A stretch of DNA of 37,062 nt, from positions 1 through 37,062 of the forward strand of contig CAIPOI010000002.1 in the NCBI GenBank assembly GCA_903866625.1, read 5' to 3'. Under the pieces are notes generated by a model. It worked only from the letters and a program-made list of their open reading frames with translations, was not told the origin of the DNA and did not search any database. The stretch comes from an uncultured archaeon. Lineage in GTDB: Archaea > Nanobdellota > Nanobdellia > Pacearchaeales > GW2011-AR1. Every line of letters begins with the position of its first letter. The stretch's first letter is position 1. The translations under genes and the position numbers were made by a program. Below, piece by piece: positions 16,843 to 37,062 of the stretch.

Positions 16843-17202
16843 ATGGCTGAAAAAAACAAGAAAACTCGAACAATTATAGTTGAACAAAAGCAAGGAACTT
16901 TTAGTGCTATTTTTAATCGTTTTAAATCTGATAAATTAAAGAATTCTACCGAAATTTCCTTGTTAAGAAGCCTGCTAAGCAATGAAAAAGCAAGGATTTT
17001 ACACATAATAAAAACCAAGCAACCCAACTCTTTATATGAACTTACTAAGCTTTTGGGTAGAGACTTTAAATCTGTGCGTCAAGATGTAGCAGTTTTAGAA
17101 GAATATGGCTTTATAGAGATGATTCCCATTCACAAAGGCAGGCGAGAAAAGCTTAAACCTCTATTAGTTCTTGATACCCTGGAGATAAAGATAGAACTAT
17201 AA
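16843..17202 (+). CDS. Winged-helix DNA-binding protein, HVO_A0114 type
   Basis: A small transcription regulator of 119 aa. After a Lys-rich start, residues 45-100 form a winged helix: ARILHIIKTKQPNSLYELTK, then LLGRDFKSVRQDVAVLEEYG and FIEM. The pattern (L-G-R-D-x-K-x-V-x-x-D-V-x-x-L-E-E-x-G, then G-R-R-E-K-L-K-P and L-E-I-K-I-E-L at the end) is that of the HVO_A0114 family of archaeal DNA-binding proteins. It is divergent from the S-layer gene and its promoter shares the same spacer, so S-layer control or self-control is likely. Its TATA box predicts a leader of about 45 nt. Confidence 0.8.
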   Translation: MAEKNKKTRTIIVEQKQGTFSAIFNRFKSDKLKNSTEISLLRSLLSNEKARILHIIKTKQPNSLYELTKLLGRDFKSVRQDVAVLEEYGFIEMIPIHKGRREKLKPLLVLDTLEIKIEL

Positions 17203-20442: not shown

Positions 20443-20727
20443 TTAGTTATAAATATCTTTTAGATAGTTCAAAACAAGTTGTTTTCTATCTAATTTCCTC
20501 TTTTTATTGATTATATTTGTATTTTCTCCTTTTAATACCTTTTGTTTTTCTATTCCTTGTTTTTTCTTCGCTTCTTCATGATTCTTTAGTATTTTTTTCA
20601 TATTTTCCTTGGCTTTATATTCTTCCTCCTCCTTTAAAATTTCTTTATCTTTTTTTGTATCTATTCCCCACTCTTTTAGATAATCATAAAGTTTTTTCTT
20701 TTCCTCAAAGTTGTTTTTATCAGGCAT
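20443..20727 (-). CDS. Small charged helical protein, 94 aa
   Basis: I do not recognise this cytoplasmic protein. It is almost entirely Lys/Glu-rich helix (FEEKKKLYDYLKEWGIDTKK, then KEILKEEEEYKAKENMKKIL), with a possible coiled coil and the ending QLVLNYLKDIYN. A clear SD sequence (GAGGAGGT at about 20733-20740, minus strand) fixes the start at 20727. A longer frame upstream is only the shadow of the pilin-like gene. It overlaps the upstream pilin-like gene by eight bases and is followed one base later by the MinD-like ATPase, so it may be a partner of that ATPase. Confidence 0.7.
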   Translation of the reverse strand: MPDKNNFEEKKKLYDYLKEWGIDTKKDKEILKEEEEYKAKENMKKILKNHEEAKKKQGIEKQKVLKGENTNIINKKRKLDRKQLVLNYLKDIYN

Positions 20728-21760: not shown

Positions 21761-21764
21761 AAGC

Positions 21765-22295
21765 TTAAGCACTTACCTCAACAAGAGGATTTTCAAAACG
21801 TTTAGTGATTTTTATAGATGCTTGATTTTTTACTGCATTGATACAAACAATATTTTTTTTAGTTAAATCTATATGTTTTATTTCTCTCGAAGTTAAATAA
21901 AAATCAGTATTTGGAGAATAAACATAAAAATTTTTCTTGTAATCTAAATGCGTTCTTCTTAATTCATCATAAATTTTTTTCTCACTGGAACTTAAATTTC
22001 CGGATTTTGCGCTCCAATTAATAAAACAAACACTTTGAATACCTGAAGGTAAAAACCCTTTGTAGATTGTACTAAAACTTTCAGAAGCACCCCACGCATT
22101 ATCTACCTCTTTTTGTAAATCATCCATAAACAAGCCTACTTGAATATTCTTTTGAGTATTAAGCCAAGACCTTATTCCTATAAACGCAGCAGCTACAAAA
22201 ACTGCAATAAGAATAATTGAAAAAATCATAGAAAAAGACATTCCAAATACTTCTGCTTTTTTATTCTTGCTATTAGTAATTTTTCTATTAATCAT
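21765..22295 (-). CDS. Type IV pilin-like protein D, 176 aa
   Basis: This protein starts MINRKITNSKNKKA, followed by EVFGMSFSMIFSIILIAVFV as the membrane helix. KKA-E is a good class III site: Glu5-like positions are typical in pilins, and here Glu is the first mature residue. The outer domain includes SVCFINWSAK and NIVCINAVKN, which may form one disulfide. An SD-like AAAGAGGTAA just upstream supports the ATG at 22295 over the one at 22331, and then there is no overlap with the 824-aa protein gene (10-base gap). Its neighbour E has the same FSW/FSM-hydrophobic pattern, so D and E may be related. Confidence 0.65.
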   Translation of the reverse strand: MINRKITNSKNKKAEVFGMSFSMIFSIILIAVFVAAAFIGIRSWLNTQKNIQVGLFMDDLQKEVDNAWGASESFSTIYKGFLPSGIQSVCFINWSAKSGNLSSSEKKIYDELRRTHLDYKKNFYVYSPNTDFYLTSREIKHIDLTKKNIVCINAVKNQASIKITKRFENPLVEVSA

Positions 22296-22305
22296 TTTAC
22301 CTCTT

Positions 22306-24780
22306 TTAATATGTTGGCTCGCCAGTTTCATAAGGTTTCAAAACTGCAGAACATACACTTGAATCTGGTTGATTATTATACTGGTCTTTACATTTTATGT
22401 AATAATTCTGATTGGTTTTCCATTCAGCATAATGGTTGATTTCATTATCTCCCAACATTGCAGTACCTTCATTTTTGCTCAAATCAAAATTACATGAGCT
22501 TGTAGAATAACTGCAACTAGCATTTTCATCTGTAACTGCTATGAGCTTTCCTTGTAGATTATAAGCTCTAACTACATTTGGAGCAATTTTATCGACGAAT
22601 ACAGTAAAGTTTGTCGAGCCATAAGCAACATTTCCTCCAGCATCAACACACTTGAAGAAATAGTCATAATCTCCATTTGTTAAATCTAAACTCTGAATAT
22701 GAATATTACTTCCAGTTTCAAACATATTAATAAATCCTGATTCAGATTCATTTTGAGTAGAATACAAACAGGTTGCTTCTCCATTTCTAAATCCATTATC
22801 AGTTTTTACGTTTAGTTGAGTGGTTACCGCATTGGTATTTCCGCCAATAGTACCTGTTGGTCCTGTGCTTATAACATTTAGTGGCTGTGTTCCAATAAGA
22901 GTGTATTCATATCCATTACTCATTGAATTATTATTGAAATCTTCGCATCTTATATAAAATTTATTTTCTTCTCTATCTTTTACTCCAGTAAGAGTAGTCT
23001 TACAAGTATAAAGCATTTCAGCATTCATCTGATAAACACTATTGCTACAAGACATGGTATTATTCATATTTTTAATGTCTTTGTCTGTTCTGTCCCATCT
23101 ACACTTTGCAGGTTCATTAGTATAAACATTTACACTTACATTATCTACTTTATAAGAAACAGGAGAGTTGTCAGGTATAGAAGTTGCTTTTATTACAGGA
23201 GCAGTTAAATCTGCAGATTTGTCTATACAGAATTTTACTGCGAACTCATCTCTATTCTCATTTCCGTTTCCATCTCTGCATCTTATATAAAGTGTGTACT
23301 GACCATCATTTTCCACTGAAGGTAGTGAACTATTTGTTAAGCTTGTTCCAGGCAAACTAATAGCTTGAGAATGATTTTCAGTATAAATATTCGAATCTCC
23401 AAGCCAATATTGCATCTCATTAAAGCTCTTGGTATGGTTAAAATCAACTTTACATTGAGCGATTTGGTTAACATCTCCCTCATCTGTTGTAATTATTCCA
23501 AACATAAATGGTGTAAATGCAGGTATGCAAGTGCTTTGAGTTCCTTCGATAGTCATTCCAGAAGTTGCTGTTGAACCGCCAGGAGGTCTTGGTTTTACAT
23601 TTGTATATTTTACTCCGCCACTTAAAGCATCATCCCAAGGTTTTATTCCTGGGCTTGTAACATCATCTCTCGAACCATCAATACATTTTTCTTGACCAGT
23701 TCCTTGATTTATTAGCTTGCAAGTTTGTCCAAGACTTTTACATCTATATTCTGAACAGGGTTGTTGAGTATTGTCATTACATTTAGTACAATCTGCACCT
23801 CCGCGAGGTGCTTGCCAAGAATAACATTTGAATTCAATTGTTTCTTCTTTAGTATCTGTTTTTTGATAGTTATTTGCAAGGATAAGATAGAAAGTTAATC
23901 CTCCTGCAAGAAGTCCTATACTTTTTGCTCCAAGTTTCAGTGTGCACCATTCACAGCCAGATGTCCCACTTCTTATCCAACCATCAAAATCTTTATCAGT
24001 CCCAAGCAAGCTTCCAATTTTTAAGGATGCTCCATAAGCAGTTTTTCCAGCAATAATTCCTGCTGCAAGCGAGTATGCAAGTGGTTGAAAAAGTTCTTTT
24101 CCTTTTTCAGGAAGCATAGCACTTATTACTGCAAGTCCTCCACCCACCATCGCTGCCCAACCAACCCCCTCCAAGAAGTTACCTAAAAACAATCCATTAG
24201 AAGTCATTGGGCCCCAACCAATTTCTTTTGAAAGTGTTTCTGGCAGGGCGTTTTGAGATGAAGTTATAGATTGAATATAACTTTGATAACCTTCAGGATT
24301 AACATCTTTTAATCCATTTTCAAAAACATCTTTAGATACAGATTTACCATCCTGAAAATATCCATTAATATTTCCTTTTGAATCATAAGTTACTTGGTAA
24401 GATTCGTCGAATCCGTAACTATTAACATTGGCTGATGCAATATTTGTATGTCCGCCCGCATTAGGGAGGTTAGAAGGATTTGCAATCTGTGCATATTGAT
24501 TAGAAATAGCTCCTTTTTTAACATCATAAAGATAGTTTCCTTTCATGTTTTCTATAGTGTTCCATTCATAAACTTTCTGAACTCCATTTGAATATGTCTC
24601 CATAATATATTGCATACCTGCCGCATCACTAAATCTAGTAATACTTACTTCTTCAGCCCCACTCACACCACCAAAACTTAAACTAAAAATAAAACTTATC
24701 GCAAAAACTTCCAGGAAAAGCAGAGCTATCTGGCTAAGAGCAATTGTTTTCAAAACTTTTCTTTCTTGTTTTTTCCTCAT
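22306..24780 (-). CDS. Giant Cys-rich/Ig-like surface protein, 824 aa (C-terminal half type)
   Basis: A large secreted or membrane-held protein. An N-terminal hydrophobic segment (about residues 12-38) is followed by an unknown Asn/Gln-rich part and then a hydrophobic stretch near residues 190-300 with several possible membrane helices (AAMVGGGLAVISAML, LAYSLAAGIIAGKTAYG, LLAGGLTFYLIL). Next comes a Cys cluster with CTKCNDNTQQPCSEYRCKSL (about 335-355), then at least three Ig-like units with N-x-P-A-x-C-x-W, YIRC-x-D and TDEN-x-SCSY motifs up to the end. It matches the C-terminal half of the 1424-aa protein, while the 646-aa protein matches the N-terminal half. An SD sequence (AAGGTG) stands before the ATG. 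Confidence 0.72.
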   Translation of the reverse strand: MRKKQERKVLKTIALSQIALLFLEVFAISFIFSLSFGGVSGAEEVSITRFSDAAGMQYIMETYSNGVQKVYEWNTIENMKGNYLYDVKKGAISNQYAQIANPSNLPNAGGHTNIASANVNSYGFDESYQVTYDSKGNINGYFQDGKSVSKDVFENGLKDVNPEGYQSYIQSITSSQNALPETLSKEIGWGPMTSNGLFLGNFLEGVGWAAMVGGGLAVISAMLPEKGKELFQPLAYSLAAGIIAGKTAYGASLKIGSLLGTDKDFDGWIRSGTSGCEWCTLKLGAKSIGLLAGGLTFYLILANNYQKTDTKEETIEFKCYSWQAPRGGADCTKCNDNTQQPCSEYRCKSLGQTCKLINQGTGQEKCIDGSRDDVTSPGIKPWDDALSGGVKYTNVKPRPPGGSTATSGMTIEGTQSTCIPAFTPFMFGIITTDEGDVNQIAQCKVDFNHTKSFNEMQYWLGDSNIYTENHSQAISLPGTSLTNSSLPSVENDGQYTLYIRCRDGNGNENRDEFAVKFCIDKSADLTAPVIKATSIPDNSPVSYKVDNVSVNVYTNEPAKCRWDRTDKDIKNMNNTMSCSNSVYQMNAEMLYTCKTTLTGVKDREENKFYIRCEDFNNNSMSNGYEYTLIGTQPLNVISTGPTGTIGGNTNAVTTQLNVKTDNGFRNGEATCLYSTQNESESGFINMFETGSNIHIQSLDLTNGDYDYFFKCVDAGGNVAYGSTNFTVFVDKIAPNVVRAYNLQGKLIAVTDENASCSYSTSSCNFDLSKNEGTAMLGDNEINHYAEWKTNQNYYIKCKDQYNNQPDSSVCSAVLKPYETGEPTY

Positions 24781-24812: not shown

Positions 24813-25610
24813 TTATCTAACTTCAAACTTTGTTATTCTTATTCCAAGTGGTTCTTCTGTAGGGTTATCACTTTGATATATTTTGCTAACTACAACATAC
24901 CTTCCTGAACCATTTGTCATGAATACTCGTTTAAAAAAGTTTCTTATGTCTTCTGGAAAAATTTTAGCCGTTCCCATAGAAAGTACATCAGTATTACAAA
25001 ACTTTTTTCTACAGTTGGGGTCTGCCCAAACTTGTTTCCCCTCTGGACCATATAATTGAGTTTCAATATAATAATCTTTTTTACTATCATTTAACCAGTA
25101 TATACTTATATTTCCCTCTTTTTCAAATGGTCCATTAATTCCAACAAATTCTCTATCTTGGAATTTTTTATCTCCATTTACATCATCCCAAGTTTGACAC
25201 ACAAATACGGCGAGCCCATATTTATCATGCTTTATTTCTCCGCCGCTCTTTTGACCATATATATCCCCAGAATTATTTTGTCCTAACTGATTTCTCAACT
25301 CTTGCAACTGTCTATTTTGCTCAATTAAAAGTCTCTTTAATTCTGCCTCTCTTTTCAAAGCATCTTCTTCTTTTGCTTCAGCATCTCGTCTATCGTCTGC
25401 TTTTTCCATAACATCCAGCATGGCTTGATAACCCATCGCACCAAGATAAGCATTTTTATTTCCAGTTTTTAATGCTTGTACTTTAGCAGCTTCTGTTGCT
25501 AATCTTGTTCCATCATAAGTATCTTTTGCTTTAACTCCAGAAACTAAACCTGCTCCCAAAAGAACTCCAACTAATCCCAATCCAATCTTTCTTCCAAGGT
25601 TTTTTATCAT
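24813..25610 (-). CDS. Secreted coiled-coil protein with EF-hand-like loop, 265 aa
   Basis: I do not recognise the family. A signal peptide (about residues 1-28, GLGLVGVLLGAGLVSGVKA) is followed by a helical part with a coiled coil near residues 70-110 (REAELKRLLIEQNRQLQELR), a Gly/Asn/Ser linker and a compact C-terminal domain. That domain has D-V-N-G-D-K-K-F-Q-D-R-E-F, which looks like a calcium loop of the EF-hand/dockerin kind, and a Cys pair (PNCRKKFCNTD). It lies exactly between the 646-aa and 824-aa genes, which together look like one split giant protein. It may bridge the two. Confidence 0.6.
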   Translation of the reverse strand: MIKNLGRKIGLGLVGVLLGAGLVSGVKAKDTYDGTRLATEAAKVQALKTGNKNAYLGAMGYQAMLDVMEKADDRRDAEAKEEDALKREAELKRLLIEQNRQLQELRNQLGQNNSGDIYGQKSGGEIKHDKYGLAVFVCQTWDDVNGDKKFQDREFVGINGPFEKEGNISIYWLNDSKKDYYIETQLYGPEGKQVWADPNCRKKFCNTDVLSMGTAKIFPEDIRNFFKRVFMTNGSGRYVVVSKIYQSDNPTEEPLGIRITKFEVR

Positions 25611-25684
25611 CTTATTTTTATGTTTTTGTTCTATTTAAATTTATCTATATGTTACTCTTTTAAAGTTACATCACTTTAATCTTA

Positions 25685-27625
25685 TTAGGTTGCTGAACCT
25701 GAACTTCCACTCCCCCCTGTTGGAACACTATTAACTAAATTTGAAGCTGCACTAAAAGTTTGTGCAGCATTATTTCCAGAGCTTGAACCTGATGAAACTG
25801 GGTTGCTGAAATTTGAACTCGTGGTTTTTTTAGTCTCTAATCTTTCTGCTCCTCCAGAGCCTGCAATTCTTAATTTGTTAAAATAAGCTGCGAATCCTTC
25901 TTCAGTATATTTTCCAACCCAATTAACATATCCTCCACAATCTCCAAGTTTATAACAAATACTATTCATTTCGCTTGCCCAAGTCTTTGCAGATTCATTG
26001 CTTATGCCTTCTCCGTCAGCATATTGGCAGTTTTCAACACATTCCCAATCTCCTGATTTTTGCCAGAACTGAAGCGGTTTATCAATTTTTTCCCATTTAA
26101 CAGTTATCACAGCATTTCCCTTTGAACATATAGATGTTCCTGCATTTGTACCTGAACTAGTTGGATTTACAAAACCCGTCCCATATCCACTAGGATTTGA
26201 AAAACTTGCTCCTGATGTTGCATTAGCATTTGTAGTTGTTGCTTGATTACTGTTTCCCCAGAAATTAAAACCTGGAGGATAGTTAGGAGTACATAATCCT
26301 GAAGGAGTTAAATCTCCTTTATTAGGATCATCATTTGATTTTTCAACTTGATTAGAAGAACTTGAAAAATAATATCCACTAACCCAAGTGCAATCTCTTA
26401 CATCTGTATTAGTACAATCTGCTTCCTCTTCCTGAGAAGTGCAATCTTGCCATCTATTAACTCTGCAAGCTGCTTCAGTGAATCCATTAAAAGAACCCTC
26501 TATACAAATCTCATTTCTATAATCTGCACATGGTTCAGTTATAACCTCTCCATATAAGCAAACTTCTTTATAATATCTCGAACCAACAGGATCTTCTCCA
26601 TTACCTGTTGGCGAATCAGTTACGCACCAAGACTCTCCATGTTTTTTACCTTCTTTCTTGCAACCCAAATCAATACAGATATAATCTCCATAAGTTGCTC
26701 TTCCTAAAACATTAGTTGATTTTTTGCCTATGCTTCCTAAATAATAATCACAATTTCCGCAAGTTCTTGAACCAGCATTACTCTGTCCAGCTCCACAACT
26801 ATCTGCTTTTTTAACAACTTTATTCCAATAGGTTTTATCGTCATATCTTGAGGCATCATAAATATTAGCAGGATTTCCGCATGTATCTACATAATAAACT
26901 TCATCTTTTCCTTCGAGGATTGTAGTTTTCTTAGATTTTCCACAATCAGTTCCAAGCTCAGAAGAAGTACATAAAGTATCTTTGTAAAATCCATCTGGTG
27001 CACTTCCATTTACCAATGTACTATTATCACTAAGATTTACTGCTTCAGGAGTTAAACTAGCAGTTTTGCATTCTGCTCTTGATTCAAACTTGCAAGTTTT
27101 TCCTCCAACTCCATTACTATAAACACAAGCGCCCATATCTGTGCTTTGTGCTGCTGCAATACAACTCAACTCATTTGTTATTGTTTTTTTGAAAGTAGTA
27201 TTTAATCCATAAAATCCAGACATAGCCTTGCATCTTGTTAAAGTTACAAAAGCTCCTTGATTTCCTAAAATACAACAACCTAAATCACATTGAGCAATCT
27301 GGCATTCTTTACTATCTGCCCAGCTTCCATTTCCAGCTTCACATACTCTTCTCGGAGTACTTTCCATACATAATCCTTCTTTAGTATCAAAGCAACATCC
27401 GGGCTTGCAATAACTTGCACTATCACAGGAGGTTGGAGCAACTTTATAGTTTGTATCGCACTGTTCAACAGGAGCATTCTGACACCAAGCCCCACTCAAG
27501 GTTTTTTCACAACAAGAATTTACTGTTGCTGTTTCTGCTGAATAAATAAGATTGAGAGAAAATACTATTGTTAAAGCTATCACTAGGCTTAATGCCATTT
27601 TATTCATTTTTAATTTTTTATTCAT
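25685..27625 (-). CDS. Cys-rich surface protein, 646 aa (N-terminal half type)
   Basis: A secreted protein with a signal peptide (MALSLVIALTIVFSLNLIYS) and several dozen cysteines. The Cys-rich module shows in order NSCCEKTLSG, KPGCCFDTKEGLC, QCDLGCCILGNQG, DTCGNPANIYDASRYDD, HGESWCV, PVGSRYYKEVC, EPCADYRNEICIE and CRVNRWQDC. The same order stands in the N-terminal parts of the 1041-aa and 1424-aa proteins. The last third is Ser/Gly/Asn-rich without the Ig-like units and ends with a low-complexity tail. It lies 15 bases after pilin-like gene B. Possible starts are 27625, 27607 and 27598; the last gives the cleanest signal peptide. It looks like the N-terminal half of a split giant protein. 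Confidence 0.72.
   Translation of the reverse strand: MNKKLKMNKMALSLVIALTIVFSLNLIYSAETATVNSCCEKTLSGAWCQNAPVEQCDTNYKVAPTSCDSASYCKPGCCFDTKEGLCMESTPRRVCEAGNGSWADSKECQIAQCDLGCCILGNQGAFVTLTRCKAMSGFYGLNTTFKKTITNELSCIAAAQSTDMGACVYSNGVGGKTCKFESRAECKTASLTPEAVNLSDNSTLVNGSAPDGFYKDTLCTSSELGTDCGKSKKTTILEGKDEVYYVDTCGNPANIYDASRYDDKTYWNKVVKKADSCGAGQSNAGSRTCGNCDYYLGSIGKKSTNVLGRATYGDYICIDLGCKKEGKKHGESWCVTDSPTGNGEDPVGSRYYKEVCLYGEVITEPCADYRNEICIEGSFNGFTEAACRVNRWQDCTSQEEEADCTNTDVRDCTWVSGYYFSSSSNQVEKSNDDPNKGDLTPSGLCTPNYPPGFNFWGNSNQATTTNANATSGASFSNPSGYGTGFVNPTSSGTNAGTSICSKGNAVITVKWEKIDKPLQFWQKSGDWECVENCQYADGEGISNESAKTWASEMNSICYKLGDCGGYVNWVGKYTEEGFAAYFNKLRIAGSGGAERLETKKTTSSNFSNPVSSGSSSGNNAAQTFSAASNLVNSVPTGGSGSSGSAT
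26841..26889. repeat. 49-nt stretch nearly identical to 35941-35989
   Basis: The two 49-nt stretches differ at only two bases. They encode the shared DTCGNPANIYDASRYDD block of the 646-aa and 1424-aa proteins, although the genes around them have diverged strongly. This points to strong constraint on this block or to recent gene conversion. Confidence 0.75.
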
Positions 27626-27640
27626 TTTTATCTTTAGTTT

Positions 27641-28438
27641 TTAACTTAAGGCATAACCTGGTGGCCAAGCAAGGCTCCGAGTAGCAAAACTAAGAGTCTC
27701 TTTGCTTTCTCTATCTGAGATTATGTAAACCTTGCTACCATCACTTTGTTTTAATTTTTGTATTTTTATATTTGGGTATAATCCCATATAGGTTTCAGGA
27801 GCAGAATCTCCGTATCTTGCTTCATAGTTTTGTATTGAAGAAGCAATCATAATTAAATCATAGGCATTTGAATTTATCTGCGAAGAAAAAACAGAGCCGG
27901 GATAATTTTCAGTAGAATCACTTTTTGAAAGAGTCATAGCAACATCCACATTAACTTGAATATTTTTCGGAACAAAAGTTACTGTTACTTTTTTTGTTCC
28001 AGAAGTTTTTACAGCATAATTCCGAGCTATCAATTTTTGTTCGGTATCTGAGATACATTTTTGAACTTTTGTTTGAATTAAACTGTTAACTTGATTTTCC
28101 ATCTCTTGTTTTAATAATGGTACTTGCATGATACAGGTTTTATACCATTCCTGAGTATAACAAAGATAGTTTAAAGTTATATTATTATATCTAAAATAAA
28201 GTTCTGGATTTATATTTCCACCATGACTTAATGTTTGGTTAACTGCATCTTTAACAGCAGATTGAATGCAGTCTTTAGACATTAAAGAAGGTGAATTTAC
28301 AGGTATCACAAATTGTTTAATATTATCAAAAAATACTATCGCAACAACCACTACTATTAAGATTGCTAAGATTATGAATATTGTAAGCTGGCCTTTTTTA
28401 CTCTTTTCTTGTTTGCTCTTTTTTTGATTCATATTCAC
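27641..28438 (-). CDS. Type IV pilin-like protein B, 265 aa
   Basis: A class III signal is clear: KKSKQEKSKKG, then QLTIFIILAILIVVVVAIVF as the helix. The KKG-Q site is classical. The outer domain (about 230 aa) has paired cysteines (KDCIQSAVKDAVNQTL, YLCYTQEWYKTCIMQ, KCISDTEQ) and ends LSFATRSLAWPPGYALS. It is a paralogue of pilin-like protein A (also 265 aa) and of the partial gene at the right edge: the same I-Q-S-C-x-Q-A-V start, the Y-L-C-Y-T block and the F-A-x-R ending. Each copy stands directly before a giant Cys-rich protein gene, so the two products probably work as a pair. Confidence 0.75.
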   Translation of the reverse strand: MNMNQKKSKQEKSKKGQLTIFIILAILIVVVVAIVFFDNIKQFVIPVNSPSLMSKDCIQSAVKDAVNQTLSHGGNINPELYFRYNNITLNYLCYTQEWYKTCIMQVPLLKQEMENQVNSLIQTKVQKCISDTEQKLIARNYAVKTSGTKKVTVTFVPKNIQVNVDVAMTLSKSDSTENYPGSVFSSQINSNAYDLIMIASSIQNYEARYGDSAPETYMGLYPNIKIQKLKQSDGSKVYIISDRESKETLSFATRSLAWPPGYALS

Positions 28439-28494
28439 TCTTTTATTCTAATTTATTATTGTTTTTTTGTATTATTAAACCTTGTTGTGTTCGA

Positions 28495-31400
28495 CTATGC
28501 TTCATAGGTTCTTGCTATCATATTACATTGATCTGTATTAGCATTCCCAAAATAATCTTCACATCTTATAAAATAAGTTTTTCCTTCCCAATTAATCTTA
28601 TGGTCTAATTCACTTCCTTCCATTCTCGTAGAATTAGCTGTTAAAAATGAACAGCCATTGCTTATATTACTTGAAACATAACATTTTGCAGCTTCATTTG
28701 TTTTCACTCTTAAACTTGAGGAATATTGGTAGATTTTTGTTATTAATGGTACAGATTCATCTACGAGCAAGTTATAACTAAAGTTTAGTTCTGCTTGATT
28801 CTCACTCGCGTCTATACATTTAATGCCCACATAATAAGTATCGGTAGGTTTATCTGATATAATTTGTTTATGAAGATTTGAATTAGTTGTATAAAATTCT
28901 GTAAAGGTTGTATCTCCAAAATCTGAAAAATTGCTTAATTTCCAATAGCACTTGGATTTTCCATTTGAACCGCCGCCAGAAGTTGTTACTTTTATTTCAA
29001 CAGTTTTATTTGCTGCTTTTTTTATTACGTCTCCAGAAGGAGAATATTGGCTTATATTAAAAATACTAGAAGGCCTTAAACTATAAACATAACTTTCTTG
29101 ATTGGTATTTCTCGAATATAAATCAGATTCTTTTCCTTCCAACCACGCTTGATCTTTACACCTTAAGTAGAATTTAGTCTGACTACTTAAATTTAGAGTT
29201 ACATTTCCAAGAGTTCCTGAACAGGTATAGTAACCATTATTTTCTAATGCTGCGTTTACACTTGGGAGTGTTTGGCAAGTTAAATTATGACTCATCTCAG
29301 AATATTCTGTATCATTAAGCTCCCACTTACACTCTGCAGGTTCATTAAGATAAAATATTATATTTTTTTGAGTAGTATTATATTTTATTGCAGAGCCCGA
29401 AACAGGGCTCGCATTCATTACAACCGGAGCAAGTTTATCTGGATTTTGCATAACCTCAAAATTTATTGCAAATGGGGCCATAGATTGTCCATGTCCTGCC
29501 GCATCTAAGCATCTTACATAAATTGTATGATTGCCCTCTTTCATAAGGTTAAATGCAAGTGTACCTTCTTCTAAATCTAACACATTATTGTCTGTTTGTC
29601 CTGGGATATTCAAAATAATCTTATGTTCTGTATCAAATCCGTCCCCAAAATCATATTTCATTCCATCGAATTTTGAACCAGCGCTATCTAAACTGAATTT
29701 ACATTCAGAATTTTTATCAGTAGTAATAATAAACTCTGCAGGAGTATAGGGTCTTATTGGAGGATTTGGCGTAATACTTTTCAGAGTTATTTTTGGAGGA
29801 GCTGTATCTGTAGATGAAACACAAGAACCACTTCCATCTACTCCTCCTTTTTCATAAAAGTCACAATTTCCTCCAGCAGCTTTGCATCTATATTCTGAAC
29901 AAGGCAGGCCATCTGAGCCACATTGAGAACAATCTCCTTCTCCGGCTTTAAATGGTTTACATTTAAATTGAAAATTACAAGTAACATGATCTCCTTCTCC
30001 TCCACCACTTCTACATGTAAACGTTCCAACTCCACTTCCACCACCATTTCCAAAGATGCTTGATTTCTGTCCGCAATCAGATATAAGTCTACATCTTTCT
30101 TGAAGTATTCTTATGACCGCAGGATTTGGTAATTCTCCTGAAGAAGCAAGAGAGTTAAGTTTTTTAGCGATAGCTGCAGCATCTCCATCTCCTGCTTCTG
30201 CAAATATAGAATTTATAGAAGGCGCAAGTAATTGAAGCCCATTTCCTTCACAGCTGTCTAAAGGTAATAATCCTTCATACATTGTTATAATTCCCGCATT
30301 ACCCCAAACATCTTCTCCATTAATATACTCATCCGGATTATCCCAAGATTTTAATCTCCATTTACCACAATCTCCCTTATCATGATCAAAGTATAATGTC
30401 GCAGAATAATCTCCTGCAGAACAAACACTTTTTGCACTTTCTGTAGAAGATTTTCCAGAGTTTTTTGATGAATAAAAGTTTATCCCACCCTGAACTAAGG
30501 GTAAACACGTTGCTAATCTTAAATCTTGAAAGTATTTTTCTAAACTTCCTTCATTTGTTCCTGTTAGAGTTATAGGAATAAAACCACTCGCTTGATAATA
30601 GCCAGAATCATGCCCTCCTGAAGAGACTCCGTTAGTAAGAATTACTATATTTCCCCCATTGCCCCAAATCTGAATATTTACATTGGTTTCAGTTTCTCCT
30701 TCAGGATTTTCACTTTCAGGTGCAGCAGTTGGCCACATCTTACAATATTCAGGATTACACTCTTCAGAATCATTTCCCGCAGCTAAACAATCTTGCCAAG
30801 GATTTATTTTGCAAGTAACTTCATCACCAGCAGAAACATTTGCACAAGTTTCTAACCTAAAATCTGCACAAGGTTCAGTTTCAACTTCTCCATCAACGCA
30901 AATTTGCTTAAAATATCTTGAACCAGCCAAGGCTTCTTCAGGGCTAATGCACCAAGACTCTCCGTTTTTCTTTCCAATACTATCGCAATTCAAACTTCTG
31001 CAATGTGCTTGTTCAATTCCTTTTTTCTCGCATATAAATCCTGAATTATAATCACAGTTTTCTTTTTTCTCGCATATTTGATTGCAGCTATCTAAATAAT
31101 AAGCTCCATCATCTTGACAGATAGTTTTTGTCGTTTTTTTACAAGAAGTATTTAAACTCACATCGCAACAAAATATTCCTGCTTTAAAATTGTCTGAGCC
31201 ACAATCTTCTTGAGTAGTATAAGTACATAAGTCATTATACTCTCCAGTTATGCATGCCCCTTTAACCTTAGATGCCGAAATTCCTGCACACTCACTTCTA
31301 TTTAAATCATTTCTAAAATCTTTAACAACATTTGCAGTTCTCGAATTTAATTCACAAGTTCTTGAAGTAGTCATCTGCCCATTTCCAGAAATAATGCAAC

Positions 31401-31602
31401 AACCAAGATTACATTCATTGTTAGAACAGCTAGGGTTATCAAAGAAATTTCCAGTAGTGCAAGCACTTTCCTCCGCATTCATAGAACAAAATCCAGTAGA
31501 TATGTCCAGACAACATCCTGGTTCTGCACTAACCAACACAATAGAAAATATAGACGCTAATACAAGTCCTACAATTAAAATATTTAGTTTATTTTTTTCC
31601 AT
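28495..31602 (-). CDS. Giant Cys-rich/Ig-like surface protein, 1035 aa
   Basis: A secreted protein with a signal peptide (NILIVGLVLASIFSIVLVSA). The Cys-rich module (about residues 24-290) shows EPGCCLDISTGFC, CNLGCCIISGNG, KKNGESWCI, AGSRYFKQICVDGEVETEPC, ADFRLETC and NPWQDC. The middle part (300-540) is Gly/Ser-rich. Then comes a second Cys cluster with DCSQCGSDGLPCSEYRCKAA (about 560-580) and Ig-like units up to the end with TTDKNSECKFSLD, NEPAECKWELND and YFIRCEDYFGNA. There is no long hydrophobic middle region, unlike its 1424-aa relative. I start it at the ATG at 31602, one base after the stop codon of pilin-like gene A (TAA-A-ATG), and not at the GTG at 31620. Confidence 0.75.
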   Translation of the reverse strand: MEKNKLNILIVGLVLASIFSIVLVSAEPGCCLDISTGFCSMNAEESACTTGNFFDNPSCSNNECNLGCCIISGNGQMTTSRTCELNSRTANVVKDFRNDLNRSECAGISASKVKGACITGEYNDLCTYTTQEDCGSDNFKAGIFCCDVSLNTSCKKTTKTICQDDGAYYLDSCNQICEKKENCDYNSGFICEKKGIEQAHCRSLNCDSIGKKNGESWCISPEEALAGSRYFKQICVDGEVETEPCADFRLETCANVSAGDEVTCKINPWQDCLAAGNDSEECNPEYCKMWPTAAPESENPEGETETNVNIQIWGNGGNIVILTNGVSSGGHDSGYYQASGFIPITLTGTNEGSLEKYFQDLRLATCLPLVQGGINFYSSKNSGKSSTESAKSVCSAGDYSATLYFDHDKGDCGKWRLKSWDNPDEYINGEDVWGNAGIITMYEGLLPLDSCEGNGLQLLAPSINSIFAEAGDGDAAAIAKKLNSLASSGELPNPAVIRILQERCRLISDCGQKSSIFGNGGGSGVGTFTCRSGGGEGDHVTCNFQFKCKPFKAGEGDCSQCGSDGLPCSEYRCKAAGGNCDFYEKGGVDGSGSCVSSTDTAPPKITLKSITPNPPIRPYTPAEFIITTDKNSECKFSLDSAGSKFDGMKYDFGDGFDTEHKIILNIPGQTDNNVLDLEEGTLAFNLMKEGNHTIYVRCLDAAGHGQSMAPFAINFEVMQNPDKLAPVVMNASPVSGSAIKYNTTQKNIIFYLNEPAECKWELNDTEYSEMSHNLTCQTLPSVNAALENNGYYTCSGTLGNVTLNLSSQTKFYLRCKDQAWLEGKESDLYSRNTNQESYVYSLRPSSIFNISQYSPSGDVIKKAANKTVEIKVTTSGGGSNGKSKCYWKLSNFSDFGDTTFTEFYTTNSNLHKQIISDKPTDTYYVGIKCIDASENQAELNFSYNLLVDESVPLITKIYQYSSSLRVKTNEAAKCYVSSNISNGCSFLTANSTRMEGSELDHKINWEGKTYFIRCEDYFGNANTDQCNMIARTYEA

Positions 31603-31603
31603 T

Positions 31604-32401
31604 TTAAGGAGTTCTAACACAATTTCTTAGTGCAAAATTAAACTGTTTGCCAGTTAGTGCTTCTTCAATTCTATAGACTTCAGCACCTTTTGCAGTAAAT
31701 ACGGGTTTAGTTATAAAAAATTTCTGATTTTCTTTCATTAGTTGTGCGGTTTGAGCATTACAACTTTCTCGTCCACAATCACAATCTAACTCTTCATTTA
31801 TTATTTGATTTGTAATTCTAAGAAAATCATATAGCGCAGAATTAATTTTTGTATCAAAGTTTTCAAGCACAACTTGCTGTTCTGCTATATTAAAGCTAAC
31901 TTTCCTATTTATTTTTATATTAATTGTTGAAGGTTTTATTTCAACGCCAAGAGTTAGAGCTTCTTGATTATAATCATATCTACTAAGAATCTGTTTTTTA
32001 GTATCAAAACAACTTTCTAATTCTGGTTTTACATATTCTTCTATTTGTTTTTGCATTTCTGCTGTAAGTAATGGGTGTTCGTTAGTACACAATTCCTCAT
32101 CTTGAGAAGTATAACACAAATAAGCAACAGCAGTCTTATTCATTGTATAATTATTCTTAGGATTTAGAAAACCTCCATGAATCTCTAACTCGGGTTCTAT
32201 TTCTGCAACAGCTTGTTCAGCACAGCTTTGAATATCGGTCCTAAAACTATTTTGCGGATCTTTTTTCAAAGCTCCAAGAGAAGTATTTGAGCGGATTATA
32301 TAAAAAATTCCAATTATTAAAATTATCATTACTATGGCTAAAATTATAAATAATGTTACTTGCGCTCTTTTATTCTCGGTTTTCATCTCTTTTTTATTCA
32401 T
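31604..32401 (-). CDS. Type IV pilin-like protein A, 265 aa
   Basis: The N-terminus KKEMKTENKRA, then QVTLFIILAIVMIILIIGIF forms a class III signal with an RA-Q cleavage site and one helix. The outer domain starts DIQSCAEQAVAEIEPELEIH and has YLCYTSQDEELCTNEHPL, ESCFDTKKQ and, unlike copy B, an extra Cys set (DCDCGRESCNAQ). It ends FNFALRNCVRTP. It is a paralogue of the gene at 27641-28438, with the same length and block order. The next gene (1035-aa giant) starts one base after its stop codon, so the two are translationally coupled. Confidence 0.75.
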   Translation of the reverse strand: MNKKEMKTENKRAQVTLFIILAIVMIILIIGIFYIIRSNTSLGALKKDPQNSFRTDIQSCAEQAVAEIEPELEIHGGFLNPKNNYTMNKTAVAYLCYTSQDEELCTNEHPLLTAEMQKQIEEYVKPELESCFDTKKQILSRYDYNQEALTLGVEIKPSTINIKINRKVSFNIAEQQVVLENFDTKINSALYDFLRITNQIINEELDCDCGRESCNAQTAQLMKENQKFFITKPVFTAKGAEVYRIEEALTGKQFNFALRNCVRTP

Positions 32402-32438
32402 TTTATTGTAGTTTTCTGATTTTATAACCTTTGCTTTG

Positions 32439-35400
32439 TTAGTAGGTTTTTACTTTAAAGCACTCTCCAGCTTCATTTCCATATTTATCTACACATTTGA
32501 TATAATAGTTCTGATTTTTCTGCCATTCTAAAGTATGCGTGATTCCAGCACCATCCATCTGAGTTAAATTAATATTTTTATCTTCTAAATTATAAGTGCA
32601 TCCTATCGTAGAATTCTGAATATAAGAACAACTAGAGTTTTCATCAGTTATGATCACTAATCTATCACTTACTTCATAACTTCTTAAAACAATCGGAGCT
32701 TGATTATCTGTTAAAACATTTATAGTTATATTTTTTTCATCACTATTCCCTACTTCATCAGTGCATTTTATAGAAATACTATTTTCTCCAGAGAACATAT
32801 CTGAAAATATTTGAGAGTGTATATTGGAGTTTGTATTCAAGAAATCAATATATTTTCCAGCTTCTCCAAAATTATTGAATTTATAAGAACAAATAGCTTT
32901 TCCATTTTCTATACATCCCGTAGTAGATACTTTTACTTCAACAGTCGCAGGGCTCTTGCTTATGACGGTTGTTTTATCTGCAGTTAAAGTACTAATCGTC
33001 AAACCACTATTGCAAACATTTAGATTATATTCTTTTGAATTCTCCATAGTATTTGCTTTGGTACTATTATCCTTGGAATTTTTATCTGCCAAATCTTGAC
33101 ATTTAATAAAGAATTTATTTTCTCCGGCATTAAGATTCTTAATTGTAGCATAACATGGCCAATTTCCAAGAATTGCGGAATTTGAATCGGTTAAACAAGT
33201 AAAACTATCATTCATCTGTTCATAAAGCAAATTTATATTTTGAGAATACTTACATCTGCTGGGTTCATTCAACCAAATAACCACTGAGCTTGAATTTGCA
33301 TCTTTCTTTACATAAGAATCTGAAGCAGGTATCATATTCTGTATTACTGGGGGGGTTATATCTTTTCCAGAATTTGCTATAACCTTTACAACAAATTCTC
33401 CTTCATTTACCTGTCCTGCAAAATTCTTACACCTAATATAATAATTATTCTCTCCCGGCGAAAATCCAAGCGTGGACTGTCCAAATCCACTATTAAATAT
33501 ATTAGGAGATAGAACCACCTTATGGTAATTTCCTTGAATTGAATTTTGTGCTTCTTGACTAGAATATGCTGGAACTTCAGGAACCATGCTAACTGCCATA
33601 TCATCAAAACTTGCTGTATGTTTATTATCTATCTTACACTGTGCATATTTATCTGTAGTAATTCCAAAAGTTATTGAAGTCCATCCATCAACTAACTGTC
33701 CTGTTTTACTTTCAATCTTAAAACTCTTATCTTTTACTTCGGTGTATTTATCTTCAGGATTTAATATTTCTTCCCAAGGTTTTATCTGTGCACTCCAAAT
33801 ATCATTTATTGTTGCACAATATCCTGGTTCTCCATTTTCAATATAATACTGGCAGTTCTGCCCAAGACTTCTACATCTATATTCTGAACAGGTTCTTATA
33901 TCATTATTACACAAAGAACAATCTCCTTTTAGTGGCGGTTGCCAAGCATCACAAGTGTATTTCAAAGTTACATACTCATTTTCCTCATAAGAATTATCTA
34001 CACAATTAGTATATATAGAAGTTGTGACCGCAATTATAATTCCAACAGCTATACCAATTGGACATCCTATGCCTGTAGCACAACTTGAACTGCTCATAAG
34101 AACTATTACACTAGCAATAGCTGTTCCAGCCGCAGCTCCGTAAGACATAAGCCCAGCAATAAATTGCTGTGATTTTCCAGGACTCCAATTCTGATTTTTT
34201 AAAATTAATTTTCCAATAGTATATGCTGCGGCCATACCTAATACTGCTCCCACGATTTGTGCTCCTGCCGCATTTATGCTTGGAAGAATTGAGGCTCCAA
34301 GATTACTTGTAGTTTGAACTGATTGAGAAATTACAACTTGGTTTCCTAAAGTTATTGAGTTAACTGCTATTTCCCCTCCCTGCGTAGTAAGATAGATTGG
34401 TGCTTGTGCTGTAGCTTTTATTAATTGTCCATTTACAATTACTGCTCCGCTAGTCAGTGTTTGTGAACCGCCAATACTCATTAAAGAATCTATTGTTACA
34501 GTTGTAGTAAGCAAAGAACTAATTCCAGAAGTTCCTAAACTTGTTCCAGTTGAGGTAAGGCTTCCAATAGTACTTATTTGTTCGGTATTTGCTTGATTTT
34601 GTATCCCCTCAATCTGAGTTTGAGCAGAGGCTTGTTGAGAAGTTGTTTGAGGACTATCTGTATTTGTAATAGCTTTTCCAGTTATTAATGGCAGAGTCAT
34701 AGTTTGAATCAAACTCTTTAGATTTCCTGCTCTAATCATTTGTGATTTTGTTTTTGCACTATTTAGATATTCTAAACTTGGAGCATAACCCTCTGAAGAA
34801 GCATTTTCATTTCTGCCACTAGCACTTGTTTTGATTCTTTTAACAGAATTATTTATTGGATTCGAGCCCATTTCTCCAGCAATATTTGCTTTTACCCCAC
34901 AAGGACCAATCATCGCACATCTTTCATTTAGTGCATCAATAGTCATTTTTACAGTTTCATTTGTGTTAGGATTTGCAGAATCTAAACTGCATTCCCAATT
35001 TTCTTCATCTTGCCATGGCGTACAATCCACATCATTAGGAGCTACTAAAGAAGTTAAGCCTCCTGTTTGCAAGCATAACTGAGATTTTATTATACTTTGA
35101 ATATCTAAATCATTAGGATCATTTGGTCTGCAGGTTCTAGTTTTATGGCTTACACAAGTAAAACTTCCAAGACTACATATTGCTTTTGTTTCTTCTAAAC
35201 TTCCACCATAATTATCTCCTGCAGAAGCAACTTTTATTTTTGAATCATTATTGGTATTTAATAAAGAAGAAAACAAACTCGCAGTAAGATTTTTTTTGCC
35301 ATTTTCTGGAAGACTCCAGAACACCATTCCTGGAGTGTATTTTGGTACACAATAAGATATAACTTTGTTTGCATCAAGCCCTATATTTCCAGCACTTCCT

Positions 35401-36713
35401 TGCATATCATTTGTCGTGTCTTTAAATCCAGGAAGATTATTTATTTCTGAATTTTCAGAAATCTCATTATACATAATGCACTGATCTAATTCATCACATT
35501 CAGCTTTTACTTCACTATAACTTTCTTTTTCATTAGCAGATAGACATGAACGCCAATCATTCATAGTACATTTTGCTTCAGAAGGTCCAGTAGTATTTTT
35601 TTGTATACAAATCTCATTGTTAAAATCTGCACAAGGAGAAATAGATAATTCTCCTTCAATACATTTCTCCACAAAAAATCTCGAACCCACTGGAGCAGAA
35701 CCAAAGACATTAGTACTATAATCGCTTACACACCAAGACTCTCCGTTTTGTTTTATTCCATTCTCAGTTTTACAAGTCAAATCTCTACACACTTTATTTC
35801 CAGAAGTTGGCTTATCGTCTTTTCCTATTCTATAATCTGAACAAACAGAACCTCCTAAATAATCACAGTTTCCACAATCTTTTCCTGCCTTTGAACAAGA
35901 GTCTTTTTTGTCTATAACTATTTGCCAATAGTTTTCATCATCATATCTTGAAGCATCATAAATATTAGCAGGATTTCCACATGTATCTAAATAAAATATT
36001 TGATCCTTACCTTCAAGGCAGGTTGTTTGTTTTGATGGTCTGCAGTTTGTTTTTAGTTCTTTAGCAGTGCATAAATATCCTTCATAAAAATTTCCAGTTT
36101 TGCATAATCCTTTTGTGGTGAACTTACAATCATAAACTCCAGAGAATCCATTTTCAACATTTACACAAGCTCCTTGCTTATTTAGATTAGTATACGTATT
36201 ACAACTTCCACTAGAATCTAATTTTCTAAAGTCTGGTTGCAAATTAATTAGTTTTGTTTTTATGGAGCATTCTCTATTAGTAGTTACCATCGCGCTATCT
36301 CCAATTACACAGCAACCCAAATCACATTGAGGAATTTCACATTTGGGACTATTACTCCAATTACCTCCATCTGCAATGCATTTATCCTTAGGAGAATTTA
36401 GAGAACAGATTCCTTCTTTTGGATTATAACAACATCCAGGTTGACAAGATTCAACATAATCGCAAGAAGTAGCAATTGGAGCCTCTTTACATAAGTCTGC
36501 ATCAACACTATTAATCGTCTGACAGATTCCACCGTTGAGGGTTTCCTTACAGCAACTTGTTGAGACAGGGCTTTGAGTTTGTGCTTTAATTTCCGGGATA
36601 GCAATAGCAAAATCAAAACTAATGAAATATAAGAAAGCAAAAGTTGAAACCAGCATAATGGCTATTTGCAGAAAACTTATACTCTTTTTTGTTAGATATT
36701 TCTTATTATTCAT
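32439..36713 (-). CDS. Giant Cys-rich/Ig-like surface protein, 1424 aa
   Basis: The largest protein here and the full form of the family. After a signal segment (FLQIAIMLVSTFAFLYFISF) comes a Cys-rich module (about residues 50-620) with TSCCKETLNG, QPGCCYNPKEGIC, QCDLGCCVIGD, DTCGNPANIYDASRYDD, NGESWCV, APVGSRFFVEKC and SPCADFNNEICI. Next are Thr/Ser/Gln-rich text and a hydrophobic region near residues 795-895 with several possible membrane helices. Then follow the second Cys cluster (CSLCNNDIRTCSEYRC, about 935) and Ig-like units (NEPSRCKYSQN, TDENSSCSY, YYIKCVDKYGN) to the end. An SD sequence (CGGAGGAG at about 36718-36725) fixes the start at 36713, one base after the stop codon of the partial pilin-like gene. 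Confidence 0.75.
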   Translation of the reverse strand: MNNKKYLTKKSISFLQIAIMLVSTFAFLYFISFDFAIAIPEIKAQTQSPVSTSCCKETLNGGICQTINSVDADLCKEAPIATSCDYVESCQPGCCYNPKEGICSLNSPKDKCIADGGNWSNSPKCEIPQCDLGCCVIGDSAMVTTNRECSIKTKLINLQPDFRKLDSSGSCNTYTNLNKQGACVNVENGFSGVYDCKFTTKGLCKTGNFYEGYLCTAKELKTNCRPSKQTTCLEGKDQIFYLDTCGNPANIYDASRYDDENYWQIVIDKKDSCSKAGKDCGNCDYLGGSVCSDYRIGKDDKPTSGNKVCRDLTCKTENGIKQNGESWCVSDYSTNVFGSAPVGSRFFVEKCIEGELSISPCADFNNEICIQKNTTGPSEAKCTMNDWRSCLSANEKESYSEVKAECDELDQCIMYNEISENSEINNLPGFKDTTNDMQGSAGNIGLDANKVISYCVPKYTPGMVFWSLPENGKKNLTASLFSSLLNTNNDSKIKVASAGDNYGGSLEETKAICSLGSFTCVSHKTRTCRPNDPNDLDIQSIIKSQLCLQTGGLTSLVAPNDVDCTPWQDEENWECSLDSANPNTNETVKMTIDALNERCAMIGPCGVKANIAGEMGSNPINNSVKRIKTSASGRNENASSEGYAPSLEYLNSAKTKSQMIRAGNLKSLIQTMTLPLITGKAITNTDSPQTTSQQASAQTQIEGIQNQANTEQISTIGSLTSTGTSLGTSGISSLLTTTVTIDSLMSIGGSQTLTSGAVIVNGQLIKATAQAPIYLTTQGGEIAVNSITLGNQVVISQSVQTTSNLGASILPSINAAGAQIVGAVLGMAAAYTIGKLILKNQNWSPGKSQQFIAGLMSYGAAAGTAIASVIVLMSSSSCATGIGCPIGIAVGIIIAVTTSIYTNCVDNSYEENEYVTLKYTCDAWQPPLKGDCSLCNNDIRTCSEYRCRSLGQNCQYYIENGEPGYCATINDIWSAQIKPWEEILNPEDKYTEVKDKSFKIESKTGQLVDGWTSITFGITTDKYAQCKIDNKHTASFDDMAVSMVPEVPAYSSQEAQNSIQGNYHKVVLSPNIFNSGFGQSTLGFSPGENNYYIRCKNFAGQVNEGEFVVKVIANSGKDITPPVIQNMIPASDSYVKKDANSSSVVIWLNEPSRCKYSQNINLLYEQMNDSFTCLTDSNSAILGNWPCYATIKNLNAGENKFFIKCQDLADKNSKDNSTKANTMENSKEYNLNVCNSGLTISTLTADKTTVISKSPATVEVKVSTTGCIENGKAICSYKFNNFGEAGKYIDFLNTNSNIHSQIFSDMFSGENSISIKCTDEVGNSDEKNITINVLTDNQAPIVLRSYEVSDRLVIITDENSSCSYIQNSTIGCTYNLEDKNINLTQMDGAGITHTLEWQKNQNYYIKCVDKYGNEAGECFKVKTY
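35941..35989. repeat. 49-nt stretch nearly identical to 26841-26889
   Basis: Partner of the stretch in the 646-aa gene, in the same orientation, 9.1 kb apart. Unequal recombination between the two could delete two of the three cassettes. Confidence 0.75.
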
Positions 36714-36714
36714 T

Positions 36715-37062
36715 TTATACTCCTCCGGGCAGACTGCATGATTTAACTGCAAAACTGATATTTTTTTCAGAAGCTCTATCACTGAGAGTATAAATTTTAG
36801 TATTATCACTTGTTATAAAATAATCTATCTTTGTTTCAGGATAAACCATCATCCAATTTATATCATTAAACTCACAATAGGTTGATTGATAATTTACTAT
36901 TTTTTGTGTTGTTTTTAAAAGATTAAAGATAGGGCTTTGTATGCTTGAACTAAACTCTTCATAAACTTTTGTCTCATTTTCTTTTTTTGCACTAATTTTT
37001 TTATTGATTTGAAGCTCTATGCTTTTATCATAGAAGTTTATTTTTGTACTGAGGTTTCCTTC
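36715..37062 (-). CDS. Partial type IV pilin-like protein C, C-terminal 115 aa
   Basis: The frame is open from the window edge (37062) to TAA at 36715, so the start lies outside. The translated part begins EGNLSTKINFYDKSIELQ and ends KIYTLSDRASEKNISFAVKS, then CSLPGGV. The end blocks match pilin-like proteins A (YRIEEALTGKQFNFALRNC) and B (VYIISDRESKETLSFATRS). It is the third copy of this family and again stands directly before a giant Cys-rich gene, with the junction TAA-A-ATG. The N-terminal signal cannot be seen here, so its pilin nature is inferred from the paralogues. Confidence 0.7.
   Translation of the reverse strand, partial: EGNLSTKINFYDKSIELQINKKISAKKENETKVYEEFSSSIQSPIFNLLKTTQKIVNYQSTYCEFNDINWMMVYPETKIDYFITSDNTKIYTLSDRASEKNISFAVKSCSLPGGV

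Follow-up and report, generated by a model that had tools for sequence, protein, structure and literature searches.

Tandem pairs of pilin-like and giant Cys-rich protein genes as candidate matched surface devices in a DPANN archaeon

Gene pairs encoding a pilin-like protein (P) and a giant Cys-rich protein (G) are repeated in tandem in a 37,062-nt stretch of archaeal DNA (the window, to which all coordinates refer) and recur across its relatives. We propose that the pairs may be matched surface devices of an undescribed family, with which the cells may grip or sense others. Our preferred reading, held tentatively and at slightly under an even chance, is that each pair forms a two-part surface device in which P is a minor, tip-type pilin carrying its own G; here, we infer both filament assembly and contact between P and G. 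To our knowledge, how DPANN archaea recognise and hold their partner cells is largely unknown, and the P–G cluster is a conserved, specific candidate for this task.

The window comes from a Ca. Pacearchaeota archaeon (DPANN), and the pairs lie on its minus strand. The first P gene, p1 (type A), is represented by its 3′ part (36715..37062) and is complete on a 173 kb contig, where it spans 36715-37485 (L002:3716-4486) and encodes 256 aa. Directly after it comes G1 (32439..36713), a full-length type-A giant of 1424 aa with ~70 Cys. Then come p2 (31604..32401, 265 aa) and its partner G2 (28495..31602, 1035 aa), an additional A-like pair that is found elsewhere in a genus mate, followed by the type-B gene p3 (27641..28438, 265 aa) and G3N (25685..27625, 646 aa). 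The first-pass annotation described a three-fold cassette of pilin-like and giant Cys-rich proteins here, and this holds: the ORFs are in place, and paralogy is evident from sequence matches between p1 and p3 (E=1e-28), p2 and p3 (E=3e-17), G1 and G3N (33% identity, E=3e-89), and both ends of G1 and G2 (E=2e-53 and 1e-39). Extension of the contig to the right, suggested as a check for more copies, completed p1 and revealed no fourth copy; instead, a divergent 188-aa ORF is followed by genes for PCNA and primase.

The third giant had been listed at 646 aa, without its C-terminal half. The 646-aa protein does carry a copy of the Cys-rich N-module, but rather than a shorter giant it is the N-terminal half of a split type-B giant, the C-terminal module being encoded by a separate gene, G3C (22306..24780, minus strand, 824 aa), that matches residues 917-1415 of G1 (E=3e-65). 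Between the two halves sits X265 (24813..25610, minus strand, 265 aa), a secreted-looking coiled-coil protein unrelated to G, and the junction between the halves (GN and GC) is an insertion hotspot in relatives. We ruled out a frameshift, or a sequencing or assembly error, as the origin of the split, because the split is conserved in ~70 relatives.

Downstream of the last pair, also on the minus strand, are four conserved pilin-like genes: the small q188 (21765..22331), q350 (20720..21772), q181 (19089..19634) and q180 (18550..19092). A gene for a MinD/ParA-like ATPase (19638..20441, minus strand; PF13614, E=6.8e-20) lies among them, and is seldom at the corresponding position in relatives. 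Next is a secreted protein of 375 aa that contains an Ig-like domain (17369..18496, minus strand) and is not conserved with the cluster. A plus-strand gene for an HVO_A0114-like HTH regulator (16843..17202) is conserved between q180 and the gene for an S-layer-type protein (14284..16395, minus strand), where the conserved cluster ends. The latter protein gave no match to an S-layer Pfam domain; its homologue at the equivalent place in locus L168 matches PF05124 (S_layer_C) above the cut-off (E=1.3e-8).

In the relatives that we fetched, nearly every P is followed directly by a G in the same orientation, and the exceptions are mostly due to short intervening ORFs or contig ends. Only genome G045 has G genes without a recognisable adjacent P. 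In a 93-genome sample of the class, P was also found in 28 of 29 G-positive genomes, and in the remaining one the G match is marginal. The collection scan for GN used an alignment of a closer set of sequences. Every genome sampled from the order carries P, as do many from the class. The order PCNA - (P-G)x1-3 - q188 - q350 - q181 - q180 - S-layer gene is found again in distant orders of the class, the four small pilin-like genes being usual in the cluster, and the P–G unit persists across orders despite a copy number of 1-3, inverted copies (L117, L135) and insertions between GN and GC. Checked in related genomes, then, co-occurrence is not refuted: P and G form a fixed unit across order and class. 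The copies in genome G066 are suspected to be contamination, because its genus mate G037 lacks them.

The leader of P is of class-III type with a prepilin-peptidase-like motif, at which cleavage is predicted. The pattern K[KR][GAS]-Q-x-x-x-F is fitted by 65 of 80 members, the other 15 being close variants, and every sequence in the P alignment has Q just after the presumed cleavage site. None of the 80 proteins has Glu at mature position 5; the residue there is Phe in 65, as the search pattern required, and F, Y, I or W, judged by eye, in the other 15. The N-terminal helix of P is long and hydrophobic, its ectodomain contains Cys, and the AlphaFold2 model of p3 contains helices at 14-44 and 50-71 (mean pLDDT 92.5). 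Foldseek comparison of the P fold with the PDB and viral models returned no match at E<=0.001, pilins included; the PCNA-like top matches (TM ~0.14) were taken as noise. No sequence relatives of P were found in the PDB, and neither a Pfam search of the 80 members nor an NCBIfam search of P gave a family. Hence the earlier description of P as pilin-like is borne out for the leader and the long N-terminal helix, and fails for the ectodomain, which does not resemble that of a solved pilin. P had also been cast as the stalk of an appendage. That role is not supported: P looks more like a subunit of the tip or a minor one than like a stalk polymer, because there is one P per G, Glu5 is lacking, and the ectodomain is large and non-standard.

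G, by its sequence features, is a Sec-type giant, either secreted or anchored, whose head is rich in Cys and whose C-terminal part is a chain of Ig/FnIII-like domains. In G1, an N-terminal hydrophobic leader precedes the Cys-rich N-module (the head), hydrophobic Gly/Ala-rich helices and the C-module; G3C has its own leader, hydrophobic helices and C-module. The N-terminus is hydrophobic in 58 of 60 full-length copies. On reading, the middle of G2 contains no hydrophobic helices, and it is disordered in the AlphaFold2 model. The C-module had 433 matches in the PDB at E<=0.001; adhesion chains of Ig/FnIII type and the GhpA grappling hook were among the best of them. Sequence searches of G against Pfam, NCBIfam and the PDB identified no family, and generic Ig-like matches were obtained in G3C only.

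How might such a device work? In the mechanism that we favour, P would be cut by the single prepilin peptidase of the cell, one being encoded in the genome, and would act as a minor, tip-type pilin without Glu5, like GspK and PilX. It would cap or prime a short filament made together with q188, q350, q181 and q180, and at the filament end would hold its own G, as minor pilins hold PilY1. G would then reach through the S-layer and make contact with another cell, to grip or sense it. Types A and B would be two constant versions of the device, and the extra pair seen here a genus-level addition. The likely motor would be a divergent type IV filament machine (ATPase/TadC) encoded away from the locus. 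This mechanism draws on the fixed pairing, the conserved neighbourhood, the agreement of the P and G trees, the missing Glu5, the C-module matches, the single peptidase and the divergent machine; the unmatched P ectodomain and the weakness of coevolution beyond shared descent count against it. Also on the opposing side, the locus itself contains no filament ATPase or TadC gene, and type IV filament machines are present in the genome outside it. A high-scoring subtype of the divergent ATPase/TadC machine is found in 38 of 42 P-positive genomes versus 1 of 51 P-negative genomes, an association that follows clades and therefore does not represent many independent events. The data do not support a canonical TadC as the required motor: four P-positive genomes have no above-cut-off match to PF00482, yet keep a divergent TadC-like gene.

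It is also conceivable, although rather unlikely in our estimation, that P works outside any filament, as a membrane-bound helper in anchoring, folding or display. G would be held in the membrane by its helices, with the head and Ig chain passing through the S-layer and P alongside. In 55 of 60 full-length copies and in 59 of 61 split ones (GC), hydrophobic segments do lie near the C-module, and if these helices are truly transmembrane, G would be anchored in the cell membrane and therefore not at a pilus tip, which would count against our preferred reading. The lack of a known pilin fold in the P ectodomain fits a helper as well, as do the very varied partners of the P superfamily, a trypsin-like protease included. 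A plain anchor, however, would have no need of the prepilin-type leader motif, which is retained even in distant members of P. Further arguing for a filament role are the four other pilin-like genes usual in the cluster and the tracking of a type IV filament machine subtype by P.

Pairing of this sort is also seen elsewhere in the P superfamily. A co-directional partner gene begins within 150 bp downstream of 184 of 237 P-superfamily genes (78%), as against 17% of background ORFs; to count as a partner, the product had to be 250 aa or longer and hydrophobic at its N-terminus, by a crude hydrophobicity cut, and the background was drawn from the same loci. Overlaps of 4 or 1 bases occur in 26 of 77 non-G pairs, which suggests coupled translation, and all five P-superfamily genes in the genome of the window have such a secreted-protein gene after them. 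Possibly, though we regard this as somewhat doubtful, the P superfamily embodies a general pairing code, by which many surface or secreted proteins (G, proteases, other giants) each have their own upstream pilin-like partner, and one divergent, clade-specific type IV filament machine deals with them all. If so, the system would serve for modular display or delivery, with cargo chosen by the pilin-like protein. The same counts are in line with a device like the type II secretion pseudopilus, in which the P-superfamily protein is a dedicated carrier that expels the product of the adjacent gene and G is one cargo of many. We consider this distinctly unlikely, as the partners have Sec-type leaders of their own and could cross the membrane without P, no outer membrane is expected but an S-layer alone, and the background and hydrophobicity cut have the limits given above.

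Types A and B occupy regular places in the cluster. Type A comes first, with a full-length G, in 50 of 51 cases (the other being undetermined), and type B second, with a split G, in 50 of 51. Trees of P and of G both separate the two types, which upholds the view of old copies that have diverged strongly; both types are ancient. That the copies differ in specificity was a further suggestion and is still a conjecture; the genus-level third copy alone has the look of a variant. Most loci retain both A and B, which resemble a pair of constant components more than variants that can be exchanged. The idea that the pairs are matched sets fares well: cophenetic distances of P and GN correlate at r=0.875 for true partners versus 0.20 +/- 0.05 when partners are swapped within loci (maximum 0.39 of 500). 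Any coevolution beyond shared descent is weak, with partial r of 0.33 and 0.43 for true partners and 0.24 and 0.02 for mismatched ones. Ordinary tandem duplication without functional pairing, the order being kept through inheritance of the whole cluster, is highly improbable: fixed order alone would produce the agreement of the trees, and the partial correlations are modest, but the pair stays a unit through the rearrangements noted above, and P-superfamily genes elsewhere are likewise paired with secreted proteins.

The locus yields a simple prediction, namely that the P and G from one pair should bind to one another. It also offers two protein families absent from Pfam and a confidently predicted fold without a PDB match. 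Should the wider rule of P plus partner prove true, the upstream pilin-like gene would provide a handle for surface-protein discovery across a large archaeal branch.

The first-pass annotation knew of no described archaeal system with this layout. Its general kind is in fact known, from bacterial PilY1 clusters and predicted archaeal T4P tip adhesins, and in the open-access literature we found no paper naming the P–G layout. Archaeal T4P loci, according to the part of Makarova et al. 2016 (PMC4858521) available here, include predicted large adhesins (DUF2341) by minor pilins, S-layer-like proteins and FleN/MinD ATPases, and some Thermoproteales T4P systems have cysteine-rich components. The window similarly brings together a large candidate adhesin, putative minor pilins, an S-layer-like protein and a MinD-type ATPase; in contrast, the adhesins named in that part carry DUF2341. 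The same part does not describe the P and G families or the repeated two-gene unit, and a search of the text gave no mention of DPANN or Woesearchaeota. The Kil Tad pili of M. xanthus, in the available portion of PMC12075869, have interchangeable minor-pilin tip complexes with variable exposed domains, used on cell contact. They resemble the proposed device in having several alternative tips on one pilus, and differ, as far as that portion goes, in being bacterial Tad pili whose tip is a minor-pilin complex with variable domains and no separate giant. GspK, the type II secretion minor pseudopilin, lies at the tip, where it has been proposed to meet substrates, and both it and the tip pilin PilX lack Glu5 (PMC7541494), as does P; PDB sequence and Foldseek searches found no match between GspK and P.

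Closest in plan are the bacterial type IVa minor pilins with PilY1, of which M. xanthus has three clusters on one machine (PMC7541494). As in our locus, minor-pilin sets stand with a giant secreted protein, several per genome, apparently served by one machine. G shares with PilY1 its giant size, a Sec-type leader and a gene beside minor pilin-like genes, and PilX shares with P the absence of Glu5. Searches of G1, G2, G3N and G3C against Pfam and NCBIfam found no PilY1/PilC or DUF2341 domain; unlike PilY1, G has a Cys-rich head, an Ig chain and hydrophobic helices instead. The arrangement also differs from the bacterial one in that every G comes with one P to itself, the remaining four pilin-like genes being common to all pairs, and in that the host is an archaeon.

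Three pairs of a small pilin-like gene (P) and a giant Cys-rich partner (G) lie in tandem on the minus strand of the window, in the order p1-G1, p2-G2, p3-G3N, X265, G3C, followed by four small pilin-like genes (q188, q350, q181, q180) and an S-layer-type gene. The repeat proposed in the first-pass annotation is borne out by similarity among the P proteins (~25–28% identity) and among the G proteins (27–33% across hundreds of residues, E-values 1e-31 to 1e-89), but the third giant, as first read, is only a half: its C-terminal module is a separate gene (G3C, 22306–24780, minus strand), with the 265-aa gene X265 between it and the N-terminal half, G3N. The window is bases 1–37062 of C2, a contig of 173 kb in a genome of 725 kb; the p1 gene (256 aa) runs past the window edge and was completed on this contig. 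The search for more copies to the right found instead a divergent ORF, PCNA and primase, and the tandem therefore ends there. Close relatives of the window genes are mostly labelled Candidatus Pacearchaeota, which makes the host a member of this DPANN group. Among the four q genes sits a minus-strand MinD/ParA-like ATPase gene (19638–20441), which has a counterpart in one other fetched locus only and seems to be a local addition to the cluster. Elsewhere in the window, a membrane-anchored thioredoxin-like protein (5247–5684; CPHC motif, weak glutaredoxin match) is a candidate disulfide helper for Cys-rich surface proteins.

A profile built from p1, p2 and p3 detects the P family in all 30 genomes of the order. 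Genes were called first in neighbourhoods from ~25 of these genomes and afterwards at 80 named loci of GTDB genomes; in both sets, G comes after P almost without exception, and where no G adjoins, mostly a short ORF intervenes or the contig ends. The first reading had hinged on such co-occurrence, and it is found: the named loci and the window together have 143 full-length P-like genes, and 127 of these pair with a G module. Fourteen of the 143 are unpaired away from a contig edge, mostly members of a distinct P subfamily that adjoins other secreted proteins. In a wider sample of the class (93 genomes), P-like genes occur in 42 and G in 29, of which 28 also have P, the exception being a marginal G match; a second, partly overlapping class sample has G in 39/148. 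Distant orders share the gene order PCNA, one to three P-G pairs, q188, q350, q181, q180, S-layer gene. One genome (G066, contigs C12 and C18) has Pacearchaeota-type P and G copies that are probably contamination of the bin, because its genus mate (G037) has neither. Another (G045, contig C7, L167) has two G genes with no recognisable upstream P; it has divergent TadC and no canonical TadC match.

These pairs are of two ancient types. Of 51 two-pair loci, 50 have a full-length G in first place (one undetermined) and 50 a split G in second place, and the same types, A (full-length G) and B (split G), are set apart in P trees and in G trees. Across 127 pairs, cophenetic distances for P and G correlate at r=0.875, as against 0.20 ± 0.05 (maximum 0.39, 500 trials) when partners are swapped within loci. 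This agrees with the earlier proposal of matched sets and shows that P and G form a fixed partnership over the long term. Ordered inheritance would leave such a pattern too, so coevolution cannot be read from the correlation alone; true partners within a type have partial correlations of 0.33 and 0.43, against 0.24 and 0.02 for mismatched partners. Of the window's pairs, p1-G1 belongs to type A and p3-G3 to type B, while p2-G2 is an extra, fast-changing, A-like pair. All three have orthologues in the one genus mate sampled, with identities of 40–54% for P and ~41–63% for G, versus 77% for PCNA. The annotation's view of the copies as strongly diverged and long kept holds, and types A and B are both maintained at most loci. 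Between the halves of type-B giants lies an insertion hotspot (window 24780–25685; same site in relatives), with inserts of up to 7 kb comprising 93 ORFs in 65 clusters; on reading, the largest clusters look like MNT nucleotidyltransferase and HEPN toxin-antitoxin pairs, and others have the look of small lipoproteins.

Most P leaders read K[KR][GAS] and then Q[VIL][TSA][IVL]F, which resembles the archaeal class III (prepilin) signal. Position +5 is Phe in 65/80; the remaining 15 have F, Y, I or W there, and none of the 80 has Glu. An AlphaFold2 model from 80 natural sequences (pLDDT 92.5, pTM 0.81) shows a long pair of N-terminal helices and an ectodomain of mixed alpha/beta structure; Foldseek gave no match for P at E<=0.001 against PDB and viral models. 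P, described at first as a 265-aa pilin-like protein, is therefore pilin-like in export signal and helix, but the head is of no known pilin type.

Full-length G has a hydrophobic N-terminus (58/60), a Cys-rich N-module in which many Cys are invariant, and then a C-module. The G2 model (pLDDT 74.9) is confident in the C-module and disordered in the middle; the C-module matches Ig/FnIII chains, among them those of adhesion receptors and of the GhpA grappling hook. These matches are generic and support a rod of sandwich domains, about four as estimated from the strand pattern, rather than a specific ligand.

The window's genome has a single prepilin peptidase. Contig C8 carries a canonical archaeal ATPase/TadC pair; on contig C5 there is a divergent type IV filament locus (L235:7628–19207; contig C5 25627–37206) with genes for an ATPase of 757 aa, a TadC-like protein of 722 aa that has no Pfam match, some nine small proteins with pilin-like leaders, and the peptidase. 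A profile of this divergent TadC scores >800 bits in 39/93 class genomes, 38 of them P-positive, and only four P-positive genomes lack it (Fisher p=2e-20, which overstates independence because the genomes share descent). The divergent version is the better motor candidate, because four P-positive genomes without above-cut-off canonical TadC all keep divergent TadC. A GspE/PilB-type ATPase also lies near the cluster (L002:10888–12855; contig C2 43887–45854; T2SSE E=2.9e-103); it has a relative in one other fetched locus only and is possibly a bacterial acquisition.

Pairing with a secreted-looking protein extends beyond G. A next gene within 150 bp, co-directional, of >=250 aa and with a hydrophobic N-terminus follows 184/237 P-superfamily genes, versus 92/535 background ORFs, as well as 55/77 P genes not adjoining G and all five P-superfamily genes of the window's genome. 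The partners are highly varied, and one is a trypsin-like protease. On contig C5 (L062:8947–16602), a protein of 632 aa whose N-terminal part is P-like lies directly upstream of a 1914-aa secreted protein, neither with a Pfam match; P-like proteins of 600–700 aa are present in most relatives searched.

We think that P is a minor, tip-type pilin carrying its own G. The pairing and its age, the P leader, the neighbouring genes and G's domain plan are established. On this reading P would be cleaved, enter filament assembly, presumably driven by the divergent motor, and contact G, in a role that may be adhesion or sensing. The main difficulty for a tip pilin is the hydrophobic Gly/Ala-rich helices that most full-length G proteins carry shortly upstream of the C-module; in split G they belong to the gene for the C-terminal half, which carries a leader of its own, and none was seen on reading G2. 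If these helices span the membrane, a G anchored there through them would be the better model.

The searches gave no family or fold match and, among open-access papers, no published layout of this kind; the annotation's claim of an undescribed archaeal layout stands to that extent, but giant tip proteins that go with a set of pilins are already known in general. A 2016 study modelled archaeal type IV pilus loci that combine predicted adhesins with minor pilins and S-layer-like proteins (PMC4858521), and the Kil Tad pilus of M. xanthus has interchangeable tips (PMC12075869). By analogy, the closest model for a tip-type P with its G is the minor-pilin/PilY1 complex: M. xanthus has three minor-pilin/PilY1 clusters served by one machine, and PilX, and GspK of type II secretion, lack Glu5 and are located at the tip (PMC7541494). 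Like PilX and GspK, P lacks Glu5.
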